Of a stretch of 39,228 nucleotides of DNA, positions 5,711 through 13,798 are shown piece after piece. Made by a program: the position numbers and the translations under genes. The notes beneath the pieces are model-generated. The model made no database searches and was not told where the DNA came from. It saw nothing but the letters and a program-made list of their open reading frames with translations. Source of the stretch: Methanomassiliicoccales archaeon (lineage in GTDB: Archaea > Thermoplasmatota > Thermoplasmata > Methanomassiliicoccales > UBA472); NCBI GenBank assembly GCA_038740345.1, contig JAVYMA010000016.1, positions 1 to 39,228 on the forward strand, read 5' to 3'. How positions within the stretch are numbered: position 1 is the stretch's first letter; each line of letters begins with the position of its first letter.

Positions 5711-8326
5711 TCATTTTTGGACGGCTATCAGCATATCGCCCACCCTTATAGTCTCCACGTCCTTGCCATGCAAGGTTAGCTGCTTCTCTATCTCGAACAT
5801 ATCTGCTTGCAGCTCGATTGTGACTCCATCATCCAATTTTAGAACGTATTTACCATCAGCAGGATTAAGGAACTCGGATGCATCGGCTTTCTTCAACTTC
5901 TCTGCTACCTCTCTAGCTCTCTCTTTGAAAGCAGGCCCTATCTTCGCAGGTAAAGGCTTTATGGCCACCGCCCTCTCGTCGATTCGAGCTTCAGTCGATA
6001 TCCTGAGCTCTTTAGCTTTCAACGTTTCTTTGATCTCAGATTCGCTCCCCTCGATTAGATGAGCGTTTTTCCCAATGATCTCTACCGAGCTCAATTCCTC
6101 ATTCAAGGCCATCTTCTTTTCCGCTTTCCAATTGCGCACGGCAGCTATCACATCCCGAACCAATATCCCTTTTTTCTCTGCCGTGTCATCCCATAAGGAA
6201 GAGAAGGGCCATTTCGAAACATGTATAGATTTGGCCTTATCAATCTTGGCGAAGTTTTCCTGATAGACTTCCTCTGTGACATGAGGGAGCAAGGGTGCCA
6301 GCATCTTCATTATGCCCAAGCACACCGTATAAAGCGTGAATCTCACGGCCTCATCCTTGGGGTCCTTGATCCTATGCTTGACCATCTCTATATAATGGTC
6401 AGCGAATTCGTGCCAGGCAAACTGTTCCACCACTCGCATCACTTTATCGAATTGGTATGAGTCGTAGTACTTGATCACTTCATTGTTCAGTTTGGTGAAC
6501 TGGCTCAACATCCATTTGTCAACGGTCCTCAGGTCCTCACGTTGATATGGCTTCTTTTTTACCACCGAGCCCACGAATTTGCCCATGTTATAGAGTTTGG
6601 TGCAGAACTTTTTACCATGCACCACGTCTTTCTCCCTGAAAGCGTTATCCTCTCCCAAAGCGCAAGTGCAAGCATAATAGCGCAAGGCGTCAGCGCCATA
6701 ATTTTCAAGAATGGGCATTGGGTCGATGACATTGTTCAATGAGGTGTGCATGGGCGTCCCATCGGGCGCCATTATGAATCCATGGATCATTATGTCATGC
6801 CAGGGCTTCGTTTGCGTAATGAGATACTCGCGCAGGATGGTGTAAAAGGCCCAGGTGCGAATGATGTCGTGTGACTGCGGTCTCATCGACATAGGATAAA
6901 GTCGCTGGAACATCGCCTCGTCTCTTAACCAGAAAGTATTATACAAAGGTGAGATGGAGGAATCCATCCAGGTGTCGAATACATCCTGGCAGGGCTTGAG
7001 CTCTCCACCACATTGGGGGCATCGTTCAACGGGAGGTTTCGAAACAGTGGGGTCGATGTAACAATCCTCCTCCCTGGCAGGTACTACCTCTCCACAATCG
7101 CATTCCCAGACAGGTATAGGCGTGGCAAAATAACGTTGTCTCGATATCACCCAGTCCCATTGCAGGGATTTTACCCAATCCTCGAGACGCACCTTCATGA
7201 ATTCTGGATACCAATTCAGCTCATTGGCTATGCGCATAACGTCCTCTTTAAAGGGAAGGGTCTTGAGGAACCACTGAGGCCGGGAGAGGTATTCGATAGG
7301 CTCGTGGCACCTCCAACATATGCTTACATTCTGCTTAATCTCCTCCTGCCTTTCGAGCAGGCCTTTCTCCTTAAGATCTTCTATCACCTTCTGCCTGGCC
7401 TCTTTCACGCTTAGGCCTTGATACTTACCTGCATGAGCGGTCATACGCCCCTGCTCATCTATGGCCTGCTCCAGCTCCAATTTGTATTTGTGAACCCAAT
7501 CCAAATCGCCCTTGTCCCCTATCGTGCATATCATTACCACGCCAGTCCCGAAATCGGGGTCTACCGCTTCATCTGCCACCACGGCGACCTCACGCCCGTA
7601 AATCGGCGTGATCAACCTCTTCCCTACTAATTCCTTATACCTCTCGTCCAGGGGATGCACCGCCACTAATTGGCAGGTGGAGAACAATTCTGGCCTGGTA
7701 GTGGCGATTACCACGTGCTCCGAGCTTCCAGCCACGGCGAATCGGACGTAATTTAATTTAGTAACGTTCTCCTGGTACTCAACCTCGGCATCAGCCAGTG
7801 CGGTAATGCAACGAGGACACCAGTTGACAGGAGCCGTGCCTTTGTACGCCAAGCCTTGCTTGAGCATGCGCAAGAAGGTAATTTGAGTGATGCGCCGGTA
7901 GTAAGGGGCGTCGGTCTGATAATAAATCGAGGGATCCATACTGCATCCTAGCACCTCGAACTGCTTGGTCATCTCCGCTATGAATCCATTGGCGAACTCA
8001 GAGCAAAGTTTGATGTATTCTTGTCTAGGGACGCTTAGCTTGGTAATGCCATACTTCTTCTCTACCTTCACCTCCGTCGGAGTGCCATTTACATCGAAAC
8101 ATAAAGGGAAGAATACATTATATCCCCGTTGGCGATGATAGCGCGCCGCGAAATCTATTAGGGAATAACCTGTAGCATGACCTAAATGCAAAGAACCAGA
8201 GGTATATCTAGGTGGATTATCGATTGAGTAGATCGGCGCAGATGATTTTGGATCGAAATGATAGATCTTCCATTCCTTCCATTTTTGCTGCCATTTCCTT
8301 TCCACTGCAATGGTATCGTAAGACAT
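5711..8326 (-). CDS. valS: Valyl-tRNA synthetase with a degenerate KMSKS loop
   Basis: Class Ia synthetase of 871 residues that charges tRNA-Val. The HIGH motif is HLGH (47-50), within TSGSLHLGHATGY. The N-terminal region NGTPTEVKVEK is the ValRS version of the catalytic domain. A CP1 editing domain follows (around TTRPELFST), then WCPRC and further Cys pairs of zinc modules, FDTWMDSSISPLY, and a C-terminal helical anticodon-binding domain (around FADHYIEMVKHRI). At the KMSKS position it reads P525-M-H-T-S529-L-N-N-V-I-D-P, so both motif lysines are missing. All other landmarks argue for an active enzyme, and no second valS is in view. A TATA-like TTTTATCA about 29 nt upstream suggests its own leaderless promoter, in addition to read-through from the CBS gene 50 nt upstream. 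Isoleucyl- or leucyl-RS identity is less likely given the zinc and NGTPTE motifs. Confidence 0.92.
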   Translation of the reverse strand: MSYDTIAVERKWQQKWKEWKIYHFDPKSSAPIYSIDNPPRYTSGSLHLGHATGYSLIDFAARYHRQRGYNVFFPLCFDVNGTPTEVKVEKKYGITKLSVPRQEYIKLCSEFANGFIAEMTKQFEVLGCSMDPSIYYQTDAPYYRRITQITFLRMLKQGLAYKGTAPVNWCPRCITALADAEVEYQENVTKLNYVRFAVAGSSEHVVIATTRPELFSTCQLVAVHPLDERYKELVGKRLITPIYGREVAVVADEAVDPDFGTGVVMICTIGDKGDLDWVHKYKLELEQAIDEQGRMTAHAGKYQGLSVKEARQKVIEDLKEKGLLERQEEIKQNVSICWRCHEPIEYLSRPQWFLKTLPFKEDVMRIANELNWYPEFMKVRLEDWVKSLQWDWVISRQRYFATPIPVWECDCGEVVPAREEDCYIDPTVSKPPVERCPQCGGELKPCQDVFDTWMDSSISPLYNTFWLRDEAMFQRLYPMSMRPQSHDIIRTWAFYTILREYLITQTKPWHDIMIHGFIMAPDGTPMHTSLNNVIDPMPILENYGADALRYYACTCALGEDNAFREKDVVHGKKFCTKLYNMGKFVGSVVKKKPYQREDLRTVDKWMLSQFTKLNNEVIKYYDSYQFDKVMRVVEQFAWHEFADHYIEMVKHRIKDPKDEAVRFTLYTVCLGIMKMLAPLLPHVTEEVYQENFAKIDKAKSIHVSKWPFSSLWDDTAEKKGILVRDVIAAVRNWKAEKKMALNEELSSVEIIGKNAHLIEGSESEIKETLKAKELRISTEARIDERAVAIKPLPAKIGPAFKERAREVAEKLKKADASEFLNPADGKYVLKLDDGVTIELQADMFEIEKQLTLHGKDVETIRVGDMLIAVQK

Positions 8327-8376: not shown

Positions 8377-9579
8377 TTAAATCTCCTTCCTTGGCTTCTT
8401 TTTCTTATCTAAACGCTCCTCTTTCATCTCCATGACTTTGGCGTCCAATATATTCATCAAATCGACTGTGGCCTTTATCAGCGACCAATCGACACTCTTA
8501 GCGATGAAGGCACCATTCTCAGTAAACAGCCTTCCGCTCAGGGAATACTTCGCTCTATTCCCCGTGGAATGGTGCTTGGTCACATGCAAGGTAAAGAGCT
8601 GAGGCTTGGTTATTTTGGAGATCTTGGCAAGACCGCTCTGGATCTCTTTCTCCATTATATCTAAGGAGAAGCGATCCTCCTCCTCCAAGCCCGTTATCTG
8701 CATGTAGACCATTTCCCTTTCGCGGAAAGAGGCGACTAACTCTACGAGATCATACATGGTGAGGATGCCTTGTATCTTATCTCTCTCTACTACTGGTAGC
8801 GCAGAGACATTCTTAGAGGTCATGAGCTTGACCACGGATCCCACATCATCCTCGGGAGAGATGGTATAGACATTATCAACGGCTAGTGAACCTACCTTTA
8901 TCTCCACTGGATCATTATTCCCACTTCTCTCCCCGATCTTTTGTGCATCTTTAACTCCCCAAAAGTAATTCACCATGTCCTTGATGCCAATGATCCCCAC
9001 CAATCTCTCATCATCATCTACTACTGGCAAGGTGCGTATATCCAGTCTGCGCATGATCTCCAACGCTTTCTTTATTGAGTCGTTACGGGAGACGGTGGCG
9101 ACATCCGTGGTCATCAACTCTTTGGCCTTTAGATTTCTTAGATCTTTTATCTTGGGAATGATGCTGATTATCCCTGCACGAGAAACTAAGCCTACGAGCT
9201 TATTCCCCTTCACCACTGGCAGTTGTCGATAGCCTGTAGAAATAAAGTGCTCTGCCACCTCAGTTATTCGCGTTTCTTCAGTGATCAGCGGGGCTTGTTC
9301 TAGGATGGTTTTAGCTTTCATACCAATTACTAGGTTGCGGCGCCGGATGATATTTCGATAGCTTATTACTCCCAGCAGCTTCCTCGAGCCATCGATAACG
9401 GGAACCTCATGCAGGTCCTTAGCGCGCATCTTGGCCACCACATCTGAGAGCGTCATTTCGGGGTCTACGCTCTCATAATCTTTCTCTATGAGGCTGGCCA
9501 AACCGATGCTGTCTATCTTGGAGCGCAACAGCTCCCGCTTCTTCACCGCTTCGATGTTTTCTCCCATCATTTTCATCAT
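8377..9579 (-). CDS. Four-CBS-domain protein with ribosome-hibernation-like C-terminal domain
   Basis: The 400-residue protein has four CBS repeats at about 33-83, 93-143, 153-207 and 230-284, each with the LPVV-x-GI(I/L) core. CBS pairs bind adenine nucleotides or SAM as energy sensors. The last 110 residues (about 290-385) read as a beta-alpha-beta domain: LFTLHVTKHHSTGNRAKYSLSGR, then LFTENGAFIAKSVDWSLIKA and a basic tail DKKKKPRK. This pattern resembles HPF/RaiA-type ribosome hibernation domains, which I infer from motif style rather than a search. It lies between glyS and valS. GGAGG precedes a cluster of ATG codons (9579, 9576, 9570, 9567), so the exact start is uncertain by four residues. 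It likely couples energy state to translation. Confidence 0.8.
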   Translation of the reverse strand: MMKMMGENIEAVKKRELLRSKIDSIGLASLIEKDYESVDPEMTLSDVVAKMRAKDLHEVPVIDGSRKLLGVISYRNIIRRRNLVIGMKAKTILEQAPLITEETRITEVAEHFISTGYRQLPVVKGNKLVGLVSRAGIISIIPKIKDLRNLKAKELMTTDVATVSRNDSIKKALEIMRRLDIRTLPVVDDDERLVGIIGIKDMVNYFWGVKDAQKIGERSGNNDPVEIKVGSLAVDNVYTISPEDDVGSVVKLMTSKNVSALPVVERDKIQGILTMYDLVELVASFREREMVYMQITGLEEEDRFSLDIMEKEIQSGLAKISKITKPQLFTLHVTKHHSTGNRAKYSLSGRLFTENGAFIAKSVDWSLIKATVDLMNILDAKVMEMKEERLDKKKKPRKEI

Positions 9580-9670
9580 TCCTCCGAGGGTCCGACGCTC
9601 AAAGCACGTCCCACTCTAAAGGGGCTCTTGAGCGACATATCCTTCTTATTAATATGCTTTGCATTGACTC

Positions 9671-11383
9671 TCACTTTTTGAGCGCAGCGAATTCTTTCGC
9701 CCCGCAGAGCAAGGAGGAAATGATACTGACTACCTCCTCCCGTTGAACCCTAACTTGCTCTGTCGTATCCCTTTCCCTAATGGTTAAGGTGCCATCTTCT
9801 AATGTCTGGTAGTCAACGGTGAGGCAGAAAGGTGTGCCGATTTCATCCATGCGTGCATATCTGCGCCCAATGGAACCTGAATCGTCATAAGCAGATTCGA
9901 TACCACTCATCCTGAGAGACCAATCCAAATCCTTCGCCACCGCCACAAGCTCGTCCTTAGGCATCAAGGGGAAGACACCAACTTTGATAGGTGCTATCAA
10001 GGGGCTCAATCTCAGCACCACGGTACTGCCCTCCTCTCCTCCCCTCTCATAATATGCATGCTCCAGACAAGTATACATTATTCGATCGAGCCCATGAGAA
10101 GGCTCAATGACATGAGGCACGAATCTCTCTCCCATCACCTTATCCTTTATCTTGACTACTTCAAAGAACTTTTCTTCTACCAGAAGCTCTTCGTTTTCTA
10201 CCTTAATCTTTATTACTCCATCCTTAACCATTTTCGGGTCGGCGTTTTCCAGAGCCTTTCCCACCTGTGCCGATTTAGCCTTGAATGCAGGGCCTAAAAG
10301 ATTGTACTTCGGCTTCAGGACCTCGCGCTCCACCTCGATAGGTGCGTCATAGCGCCTCAGTACGGACATGTCAACTTTAGAATACTCCATATGCCTGGAG
10401 AGGTCCCAGCATCCTCGATCTGCTATACCGACTATCTCTGTCCAACCAATTGAAAGCAACGCCTCCGCATCCCAACAATCCGCGGCATAATGCGCCATTT
10501 CATTTCTCAGATGCTGGCGGAATCTAAGACGCTCGGGATCCACGCCGATCATGACGAGAAATTTCTGGGTAAACCACATGAAATAGGCCAATGTTTCATT
10601 GGCGATCACGCCAGAACCCACTGCCTCTTCTAAACTCATGCTCACTTCCCTGTCTCCAGGATTGTTAGGAACCAAACGAAGACTCTCTCCCTTTACATCA
10701 GCATAGCGTGGCCAACTTTTATTTGCAGGGTCCACAAAGAGTTCCGCCTCCATCATGTTGAATTCTCTTAGACGGATCACGCCCTGGCGTGGGGAAATCT
10801 CATTACGATAGCCCCGACCCACCTGAATCACGCCAAATGGGAGCTTTTCGCGCATGAAACGATACAAGGAATTGAAATTCACGAATATCCCTTGTGCTGT
10901 CTCTGGTCTGAGGTATCCAACCCTTCCTGCTGAACCAGGACCAATCATGGTCTTGAACATTAGATTGAATTCTTCGGAGGGAGAAAGAACGCCCTCGCAA
11001 TCAGGACATCTAACACCCCTTTTTTCGATTTCCCTGTCTAGCTCGCTAAGAGTGAGGGCTGCGGCGTTGGGGCAATCCTTTAATAGGTGGTCTGCTCGGT
11101 AAGGTGCTCGACAATTGGTACACACCACCAACTTGTCGGCGAATTGATCCACGTGACCCGAAGCCTTGAAGACCGCCTCAGGGCCTATGGTATCAGAGTC
11201 TATCTCTACGAATCCTTCACCGAGAGTGTAGGCACGTCGCCAAACTTCGATTATATTGTTTTTCATCGACGTTCCTAAAGGGCCATAATCATAAAGCCCT
11301 GCCACACCTCCATATATCTCGTAAGCTGGCCATATGAACCCCCTGCGCTTGCACAGGGAGAGCACGTCCGCAGAGTTCATCAT
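9671..11383 (-). CDS. glyS: Glycyl-tRNA synthetase, archaeal/eukaryotic type
   Basis: Class II homodimeric GlyRS of 570 residues. The N-terminus GFIWPAYEIYGGVAGLYDYGPLG is typical for the family. A zinc-like insertion (CTNC near 88 and CPDC near 123) follows. Motif 2 is GRGYRNEISPRQGVIRLREF, and EPSHGLDR belongs to the motif 3 region. The C-terminal HGTP anticodon-binding domain begins around LIAPIKVGVFPL. It attaches glycine to tRNA-Gly; a tRNA-Gly(GCC) gene is 4.4 kb away on the same strand. Its ATG overlaps the stop of the upstream CBS gene (ATGA), indicating translational coupling. The length is normal and no motif is damaged. Confidence 0.96.
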   Translation of the reverse strand: MMNSADVLSLCKRRGFIWPAYEIYGGVAGLYDYGPLGTSMKNNIIEVWRRAYTLGEGFVEIDSDTIGPEAVFKASGHVDQFADKLVVCTNCRAPYRADHLLKDCPNAAALTLSELDREIEKRGVRCPDCEGVLSPSEEFNLMFKTMIGPGSAGRVGYLRPETAQGIFVNFNSLYRFMREKLPFGVIQVGRGYRNEISPRQGVIRLREFNMMEAELFVDPANKSWPRYADVKGESLRLVPNNPGDREVSMSLEEAVGSGVIANETLAYFMWFTQKFLVMIGVDPERLRFRQHLRNEMAHYAADCWDAEALLSIGWTEIVGIADRGCWDLSRHMEYSKVDMSVLRRYDAPIEVEREVLKPKYNLLGPAFKAKSAQVGKALENADPKMVKDGVIKIKVENEELLVEEKFFEVVKIKDKVMGERFVPHVIEPSHGLDRIMYTCLEHAYYERGGEEGSTVVLRLSPLIAPIKVGVFPLMPKDELVAVAKDLDWSLRMSGIESAYDDSGSIGRRYARMDEIGTPFCLTVDYQTLEDGTLTIRERDTTEQVRVQREEVVSIISSLLCGAKEFAALKK

Positions 11384-12231
11384 TGTTCACCGGTTAGTAC
11401 TGATATCACGTCCAGGTCGTAGATCATCGCTAAAAGATGATCCTTAGCGTCCCGAACCGGTAGTTGCCCGAAGTCGTTCTTCCTCATTATCCTTGCGGCT
11501 TCTGACACTGATGTCTTGCGGAAGACTGTGGTTGGTGATCTCACCATCACGTCTTTAACGCTAACTGCAGGTATATCCAGTTTTGAAACCTCATACCACA
11601 GTCTCATTATGCTGCGTACCCCTTCTCGGGCTAAACCCCCCTCGTCTTTTTCAATGCCTATCTCAGACTCAGCTATCTGGCTATTCACCAATGAATTGTT
11701 GAATATATCCCGATCTGTTAGAATTCCCACTAATATGCCTCTTTCATCTAGTACGGGCAGGGCCGAGACCTTGCTCACCTTCAAAGTCACCAAGGCGACT
11801 ACCAACGGGGACCCCTGGAAAATTGGAACGCAGGTGGATCTAATTACTGTCTCCACTGGTTGCGCATATCCTCCTTTCTCCACCACAGAGAGCAGGTCTG
11901 TTGGGGTCAATATGCCTACCAATCGGTTTTTATCTACCACGGGAATGTGGCGTATACCCATCCTGCAAAAGATCTCAGCGGCCTTGCGAACAGGTTCATT
12001 AGGACTAATGGTAGGTGGCGTTCTGTTCATTAGCATTGCCAGTTGGTCTTCATCGGGCTTATTGAATATGTCCTGACGTGTTATTATGCCAGCTAGGGAT
12101 CCATCGCTGCGCTTAACCACAGGCAGTCCTGTCAGATTGTGCTTGACCATTATTTTAAGAACATCATTTCGGGTCCCTGGCACTTCAACCACGATGGGAT
12201 TTGGAGTCATGACGTCAGCCACTATGGTCAA
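11380..12231 (-). CDS. Four-CBS-domain protein
   Basis: A stand-alone protein of 283 residues made of four CBS repeats: about 7-57, 67-115, 128-180 and 226-280. Each has the pattern VMTPNP..., LPVV, G(I/L)(I/L)T.D. The second repeat contains GIRHIPVVDKNRLVGILTPTDLL and the fourth FGQLPVRDAKDHLLAMIYDLDV. No catalytic or membrane domain is attached, so it presumably acts as a nucleotide or SAM-binding regulatory module for a partner. It starts 3 nt after uspA and overlaps glyS by 4 nt, so it sits in a tightly packed operon with translation and stress genes. Which ligand it binds cannot be judged. Confidence 0.9.
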   Translation of the reverse strand: MTIVADVMTPNPIVVEVPGTRNDVLKIMVKHNLTGLPVVKRSDGSLAGIITRQDIFNKPDEDQLAMLMNRTPPTISPNEPVRKAAEIFCRMGIRHIPVVDKNRLVGILTPTDLLSVVEKGGYAQPVETVIRSTCVPIFQGSPLVVALVTLKVSKVSALPVLDERGILVGILTDRDIFNNSLVNSQIAESEIGIEKDEGGLAREGVRSIMRLWYEVSKLDIPAVSVKDVMVRSPTTVFRKTSVSEAARIMRKNDFGQLPVRDAKDHLLAMIYDLDVISVLTGEQ

Positions 12232-12234
12232 AAA

Positions 12235-12675
12235 TTAGACCCCCTTGTGCGACCTTACTACTAAAACCGGGCAATCCGCATATCGAACCACGCGCTCTGC
12301 CACACTACCCAATAATATTTTTGAGATGCCTGTACGGCCCAAGGTCCCCATTACAATCAAATCATGGAATTTTGACGCGTCAATTATCTTCCGTGCAGGG
12401 GAACCTTCTTCTATCTTCGTCGCCACCTTAACCCCCATTTTCGCGCCTTCATTCTTTACATATTCTACTGCTTCTTTTCCTTCTTTCTCGAGAAGGGAAT
12501 AGACTGAAACAATAGTGGAGTCCATCGGGAAGTTGATGAACGCAGTCTGATCGACGACATATAATGCGGTTACCTCCGCGTCCATGAGTCTAGCCATCTC
12601 TAAGCCCTTGGCTATCGCTTCCTTGGTGTTCTCGCTCCCATCCGTAGGAATCAAGATCTTCTTAAACAGCGTCAT
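12235..12675 (-). CDS. Universal stress protein (UspA family, ATP-binding type)
   Basis: 146 residues of the Usp fold, with N-terminal KKILIPTDGSENT and the C-terminal nucleotide motif G-2x-G-9x-G-S (GTLGRTGISKILLGS), then VAERVVRYADCPVLVV. That motif marks the ATP-binding subclass. I choose the ATG at 12675, not the in-frame ATG at 12690. The later start overlaps the amidohydrolase stop (ATGA), is preceded by a strong GAGAGGAGG, and gives the usual family N-terminus. The extra five residues of the longer form are simply that ribosome-binding sequence translated. It lies between the amidohydrolase and the four-CBS gene, so it probably shares their transcript. Confidence 0.93.
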   Translation of the reverse strand: MTLFKKILIPTDGSENTKEAIAKGLEMARLMDAEVTALYVVDQTAFINFPMDSTIVSVYSLLEKEGKEAVEYVKNEGAKMGVKVATKIEEGSPARKIIDASKFHDLIVMGTLGRTGISKILLGSVAERVVRYADCPVLVVRSHKGV

Positions 12676-13742
12676 GTTCCTCCTCTCCATTCATTAAGGC
12701 CTAAGCAGACCATCAGCGGGTCCGACGAACTGCCGCGCAAGACCAGATCGGTCACGGGGTCGCCCTGATGCCACCTGGCGACCATGAAGTCGCAAGATTC
12801 GCCCGGCCGGATACCTATTGTGGATTTGCCCATTAATAACTTCTGGCCATTATACAAGGCCATGGAAAGAACTGGGCTTAAGTCCTTTATTCCTTGAGAA
12901 CGCAATATGCGGCCTGCGAATTCCATCTCGCTTAACATGTCTGGTAGGTTGAACATGGCGTTGTCTGTGCCTAAAGCCACATCCACTTCAGCCTTTAGCA
13001 TCGCGGCTAAAGGAGGTACCCTGCCAAAGAACAAATTGGAGCGAGGGCAAGCTACAATTGGAACACCTGCGGAGGCGCAGGCTTGCAAGTCGCCTATATC
13101 CGCCATGGTCATGTGGACTATGAAATCCGGTTGGAGGTCCAATATATCATCAATATCCTCCCGAATCCTTTCTGAGGCATGGATAGCAAAGCGCCTACCC
13201 CTAGAATGCACATAAGCTGCCAATTCTTTAAGCTCCTCCAACTCCCAATCGCTAACGCTTGACACACCTATTCCATCTGCCACTTCTAAGACCTTATCTA
13301 CCTCTTCTCTATCGAAGCATAGATTATTCGGACGCCCCATCACATATGGTTTAGGCCAACCAGAGCATTTTTTCAGCAAAGCTGCTCCTTTCTCCCCTCC
13401 TTCCCTGAAGTCGATGAATTGTGAGGCCCCTCTCCTCAACATAATGCCTCGCGCTTCTTCCATAGCGGCAAATAGAGCCTCATCCGAGGTGTTTCGAAGC
13501 ATGCGATGCTTGAGACCGTTGGGAGGGGCCACTAACTCTTCTATTGAAAGTGAAAGGTCGACTGGCACACGATAGTCTGCGATATGCGTATGGGCGTCAA
13601 TCAAAGTAGGTAAGACAATCCCACGAACTTCGGCTTCCTGAGGTTTTCCTTTACCTATTTCGATTACTACACCATCCTGAAAACCGACATAACCTTCTAT
13701 GAACCCCTCATCCGTCAGGATCATTCCCGAGACGAAGCGCAT
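12672..13742 (-). CDS. Amidohydrolase (metal-dependent deaminase/hydrolase)
   Basis: A 356-residue TIM-barrel amidohydrolase. Metal ligands are visible as the HxH in DAHTHIAD, a later His in AIHASE, VHMTMAD, and the catalytic Asp in ALGTDNAMF. It has the small N-terminal beta-sandwich element FVSGMILTDEGFIEGYVGF and the closing GIRPGESCDFMV of the composite domain. This resembles the cytosine deaminase/chlorohydrolase/MtaD branch, so deamination of a purine, pyrimidine or related ring is the best guess; the substrate is unknown. I use the ATG at 13742, with GAGGTGAGG directly before it. An upstream TTG at 13772 would add ten residues of poor family fit. It is the first gene of the minus-strand chain leading to valS and is divergent from the ferredoxin gene. 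Confidence 0.85.
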   Translation of the reverse strand: MRFVSGMILTDEGFIEGYVGFQDGVVIEIGKGKPQEAEVRGIVLPTLIDAHTHIADYRVPVDLSLSIEELVAPPNGLKHRMLRNTSDEALFAAMEEARGIMLRRGASQFIDFREGGEKGAALLKKCSGWPKPYVMGRPNNLCFDREEVDKVLEVADGIGVSSVSDWELEELKELAAYVHSRGRRFAIHASERIREDIDDILDLQPDFIVHMTMADIGDLQACASAGVPIVACPRSNLFFGRVPPLAAMLKAEVDVALGTDNAMFNLPDMLSEMEFAGRILRSQGIKDLSPVLSMALYNGQKLLMGKSTIGIRPGESCDFMVARWHQGDPVTDLVLRGSSSDPLMVCLGLNEWRGGT

Positions 13743-13798
13743 CCTCACCTCATCGTTCCTCGGATACTTCAAAATTCCATCTCTTGTGGCAAAAGGAT

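Follow-up and report, generated by a model that had tools for sequence, protein, structure and literature searches.

The gene studied here, referred to as hibA, encodes a protein of 400 residues on the minus strand of a contig from a Methanomassiliicoccales archaeon (JAVYMA010000016.1; the window is the whole 39,228-nucleotide stretch that was analysed). It lies between genes for two tRNA synthetases, glyS upstream and valS downstream, in a cluster that also encodes a second four-CBS protein, a universal stress protein and an amidohydrolase (Table 1). Matches to TIGR00389, NF009687, Pfam Usp and NF053603 agreed with the original prediction, which had placed the gene between glyS and valS in a chain with uspA and another four-CBS gene. 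The second four-CBS protein matched NF053603 over its full length (165.7 bits, below the curated cut-off of 520 bits), and the amidohydrolase likewise fell below the cut-off of its model (220.8 against 294 bits). The hibA reading frame is not a chance open reading frame, because the protein is present at E ≤ 1e-30 in 54 of 61 genomes, a set made up of the window's own genome and 60 relatives, and a homologue was matched in 136 of 200 genomes sampled across the phylum. Comparison with relatives and the GGAGG motif in the glyS-hibA gap both point to Met4 or Met5 (9570 or 9567), so translation probably starts at one of these codons rather than at Met1 (9579).

Table 1. Genes, domains and other features around hibA in the window.
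Feature	Position	Strand	Evidence or remark
valS, downstream, 50-bp gap to hibA	5711..8326	minus	NF009687 above cut-off, 971 bits
hibA ORF	8377..9579	minus	400 aa; full-length match to P. abyssi HibA
C-terminal HPF-like domain, about residues 285-395	8395..8712	minus	AlphaFold2 model and fold matches
CBS domain 4, end GILTMYD	8731..8895	minus	Pfam CBS match
Long CBS3-CBS4 loop (residues 208-223), corresponds to the HibA PTC loop	8911..8958	minus	
CBS domain 3, end GIIGIKD	8962..9126	minus	Pfam CBS match
CBS domain 2	9157..9291	minus	Pfam CBS match
CBS domain 1	9340..9492	minus	Pfam CBS match
glyS-hibA gap, 91 bp	9580..9670	minus	AT-rich TATA-like stretch CATATTAATA; GGAGG at 9585-9581
glyS, upstream	9671..11383	minus	TIGR00389 above cut-off, 687 bits
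Second four-CBS gene, nearest HhpR (CM-3), 4 bp overlap with glyS	11380..12231	minus	NF053603, E 1.2e-48
Universal stress protein (UspA family)	12235..12690	minus	Pfam Usp, E 9e-31
Amidohydrolase (chlorohydrolase-like), first cluster gene	12672..13772	minus	NF005552, E 2.5e-65

Pfam analysis indicated four CBS stretches in the hibA product (E 2.1e-49), as had been predicted, and no Pfam model recognised the C-terminal 115 residues, which form an independent domain separate from the four CBS domains. AlphaFold2 modelling from 21 full-length sequences gave a pLDDT of 83, and modelling of the C-terminal domain with 31 C-terminal domains as input gave a pLDDT of 87.6. The domain model has the order strand-helix-strand-strand-strand-helix, which is the published HibA/RaiA topology, and the segments GNRAKYSLSGRLFTENGAF and SVDWSLIKA, both present in the domain, make up strands three and four of this HPF-like fold as well as the beginning of its last helix. 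In a Foldseek search of the PDB, the best 34 matches of the domain model were all HPF, RaiA, YfiA, protein Y or chloroplast pY, or hibernating ribosomes that hold these proteins (E 2.1e-6 to 5.1e-3, TM up to 0.75). Together with matches of Pfam Ribosomal_S30AE to 10 of 31 homologous C-terminal domains (best E 2.5e-4) and the full-length homology to HibA described below, these results bear out the earlier proposal of an HPF/RaiA-like C-terminal domain, for which structure prediction against HPF had been put forward as a check.

Ribosomal_S30AE (PF02482) had no Pfam match in the window protein itself or in the rest of the window's genome, and a WH_AprA hit to the isolated domain in Pfam and NCBIfam searches (E 0.12) was rejected as chance. 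By sequence, a profile of the domain found RaiA of P. urativorans as its best PDB match (8RD8 chain D, E 0.02). Similarity of the isolated domain to P. abyssi HibA was not significant by sequence (E 0.66 for the single sequence, 0.39 for the profile), and hhalign of the two gave P 2e-4 at a probability of 45%. The domain is too diverged for sequence alone, so it is the full-length alignment and the fold that tie it to the P. abyssi protein. The HPF part of HibA proteins is missed by the usual domain libraries, so that these proteins carry no annotation beyond 'CBS domain-containing protein'.

Searched by sequence against the PDB, the whole protein gave its best match to chain H of 9SR9 and of seven sister entries (residues 31-390 of the 400 in the query, E 7.4e-28), and a profile of 21 relatives matched chain H of 9SR9-9SRF and 9T7H over its whole length, including the C-terminal domain (E 6.8e-44). 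These entries hold P. abyssi HibA on the 70S ribosome (data statement of PMC13324472). Chain H of 9SR9 was deposited under the molecule name 'Dehydrogenase', a label that will mislead name-based annotation. The window protein has the structural traits of HibA that could be compared by computation, namely four tandem CBS domains, homology to the P. abyssi protein over the full length, a CBS3-CBS4 loop and a C-terminal HPF-like fold. The C-terminal domain could be aligned to P. abyssi HibA without large gaps; the HPF domain of HibA is described as carrying two archaeal-specific insertions (PMC13324472). The window's genome encodes only two four-CBS proteins, the hibA product and the HhpR-like protein, and no other S30AE protein, which fits the published finding that HibA and CM-1/2/4/5 are mutually exclusive (PMC13324472). 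SBDS, the reported HibA partner (PMC13324472), is also encoded in this genome. The presence of mcrA, taken together with the relatives, points to a methanogen of the Methanomassiliicoccales.

The window protein thus almost certainly adds a member from a Methanomassiliicoccales methanogen to the known HibA family. The original prediction had referred to reports of CBS-containing ribosome dormancy factors in archaea; such factors do exist, and the protein is almost certainly HibA itself, so that this newly described hibernation factor of archaea is now recorded from a methanogen whose order is a major one in guts and wetlands. A fold search with the whole model against a library extending to 8 April 2026 was dominated by CBS modules, with HibA entries absent among the matches listed, and a peptide-pattern scan of the genome contigs recovered distant CBS proteins only. 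NCBIfam models for a diphosphatase, IMP dehydrogenase and others gave CBS-only matches far below cut-off and were rejected. For the CBS module alone, pairwise scores against MJ1225 (2.8e-22) and HibA (4.8e-21) were about equal.

The HibA family, defined by four CBS domains and a C-terminal HPF/RaiA domain, was described in Nat Commun on 27 April 2026 as parking and protecting idle ribosomes under stress (PMC13324472). It sits on the mRNA-tRNA channel of the 30S subunit with the CBS module seen in three positions on the 50S subunit, inhibits translation in vitro and occurs in 47% of archaeal genomes across all major lineages, and a T. barophilus deletion strain has fewer 70S ribosomes and recovers slowly (PMC13324472). 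P. abyssi HibA (Pab0961, Q9UYR4) resembles the window protein in its four CBS domains, its long CBS3-CBS4 loop and its C-terminal HPF/RaiA domain, and the two can be aligned over residues 31-390, although overall identity is low and the branch between them is long (3.9 changes per column). The loop, defined as the PTC loop of HibA (PMC13324472), reads GERSGNNDP in the window protein and GELAGEKIPP in P. abyssi HibA, with the pattern G-E-x-x-G-x-x-x-P common to both; its low confidence in the AlphaFold2 model is expected of a free loop. CBS4 retains an intact canonical T-x-x-D nucleotide-site motif. In CBS3 the Asp is retained and Gly replaces the usual Thr/Ser, giving GIKD, which is common to many close relatives, in place of the TLHD of P. 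abyssi HibA. Since the usual Thr/Ser is missing from CBS3, the nucleotide site may not be the same as in P. abyssi HibA, and adenylate binding may differ as well.

Bacterial HPF, RaiA (YfiA) and chloroplast pY differ from the window protein in lacking a CBS module, and share about 8-20% identity with it over the fold alignments. Conversely, the Pyrobaculum calidifontis protein Dri (9E6Q, 9E7F) and the SriA-SriD proteins found on M. acetivorans ribosomes (9ZNF, 9ZNG, 9ZNI) comprise four-CBS modules that attach to ribosomes of archaea and matched the fold of the N-terminal part, but no HPF/RaiA domain is reported for either. Dri consists of two fused CBS modules, and its identity with the window protein was rejected because the latter has a single four-CBS module fused to an HPF-type domain. 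The HhpR/CM-3 family, described as a pressure-dependent transcription regulator, has a four-CBS module like that of the hibA product but stands alone; it is the nearest family to the neighbouring gene at 11380-12231, which is distinct from hibA.

On this evidence, it is almost certain that the gene is a methanogen hibA whose product is a ribosome hibernation factor, predicted to act through its C-terminal HPF-like domain and four-CBS module on idle 70S ribosomes. By homology with the P. abyssi and T. barophilus proteins, it would bind ribosomes, inhibit translation and protect 70S particles. On the 50S subunit the four-CBS module would swing across tRNA sites left empty, so that the loop between CBS3 and CBS4 comes to lie in the peptidyl-transferase centre, and idle 70S ribosomes would be held together and shielded from degradation until growth resumes. 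An adenylate, AMP, bound at the CBS3/CBS4 interface could act as the signal.

The gene order amidohydrolase-uspA-CM-3 (HhpR-like)-glyS-hibA-valS is conserved across the Methanomassiliicoccales. In a sample of 24 loci of this order (L068-L087, L139, L143, L144 and L145), hibA is directly preceded by glyS in every case and followed by valS in 22 (the exceptions being L079 and L144), and wherever the contig extends far enough (22 loci) the HhpR-like CBS gene precedes glyS. Outside the order, none of the sampled loci has glyS, valS, the HhpR-like gene or the other neighbours near hibA, apart from glyS in L121. This linkage thus characterises the order rather than HibA, and a tRNA-synthetase neighbourhood confined to one order is weak evidence for mechanism. 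Across the order, the glyS-hibA gap usually spans 80-230 bp, with a single locus at 26 bp, and often contains a TATA-like sequence; in the window, the length of this gap and its TATA-like stretch suggest that hibA may have its own promoter there. Co-regulation of hibA with glyS and valS is possible. The fixed neighbourhood offers a handle on the regulation of HibA. The type of protein is itself not new, but the order-wide gene order and the tandem copies of family f6 described below are absent from the main text of PMC13324472, which mentions neither tRNA synthetase genes nor tandem hibA copies.

The original prediction went further and saw an energy-sensing switch of ribosomes. In an active form of such a switch, AMP on the CBS module would drive the protein onto ribosomes and ATP would release it, and uspA, glyS and valS would belong to one stress or translation regulon with hibA. 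The retained CBS motifs, the conserved gene cluster and the affinities of the P. abyssi HibA CBS module (HibA-CM; Kd 12 uM for AMP, 65 uM for ADP and 113 uM for ATP; PMC13324472) all speak for such a switch. It is nevertheless unlikely, because AMP or ATP left the ribosome-bound states of P. abyssi HibA largely unchanged (PMC13324472), the cluster is restricted to one order and the 91-bp gap suggests a separate promoter for hibA. Somewhat more doubtful still is the idea that in the Methanomassiliicoccales hibA joined a stress and translation regulon of uspA, CM-3, glyS and valS, with the CBS neighbour controlling or assisting HibA and the tandem f6 copies dividing the work as two hibernation factors with different CBS sensors.

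An HPF-like fold might also have been reused away from the ribosome, for example in a DNA- or RNA-binding regulator under CBS control, just as CM-3/HhpR is a transcription regulator. Pull-downs of P. abyssi and Thermococcus HibA did contain replication and recombination proteins (PMC13324472), and hibA is found beside an HhpR-like gene in the Methanomassiliicoccales, but such reuse is highly improbable given that the top fold matches are all ribosome-associated HPF-type proteins, that the protein is orthologous over its full length to a factor whose structure was determined on the 70S ribosome and that the loop contacting the 50S subunit is intact. Least probable of all is a regulator linked to aminoacylation, which would sense the state of GlyRS and ValRS instead of serving general hibernation: the position of hibA between glyS and valS in most loci of the order fits this reading, but homologues in the rest of the class and phylum do not have these genes beside them, with the exception of the one glyS-hibA pair. 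A general hibernation factor of the HibA type accordingly remains the preferred reading.

Tandem hibA copies were observed in family f6 of the same order, at L078 (8369-10919), L086 (7103-9650) and L087 (7189-9716), and a tandem duplication in this family is also present at L027, L030 and L032. In genome G051, one of the tandem copies (L087, 7189-8369) is broken across two frames near residue 340, reflecting either a frameshift or an assembly error. Genome G166 encodes three HibA homologues, a syntenic copy and a tandem pair elsewhere (L138, 7924-10425), and the CBS3-CBS4 loops of this pair are degenerate, with the usual motif lost. In a phylogenetic tree, the second hibA copies of G029 and G041 group together as one clade (100/100), separate from the first copies; both retain the two domains and are ~40-45% identical to the window protein.
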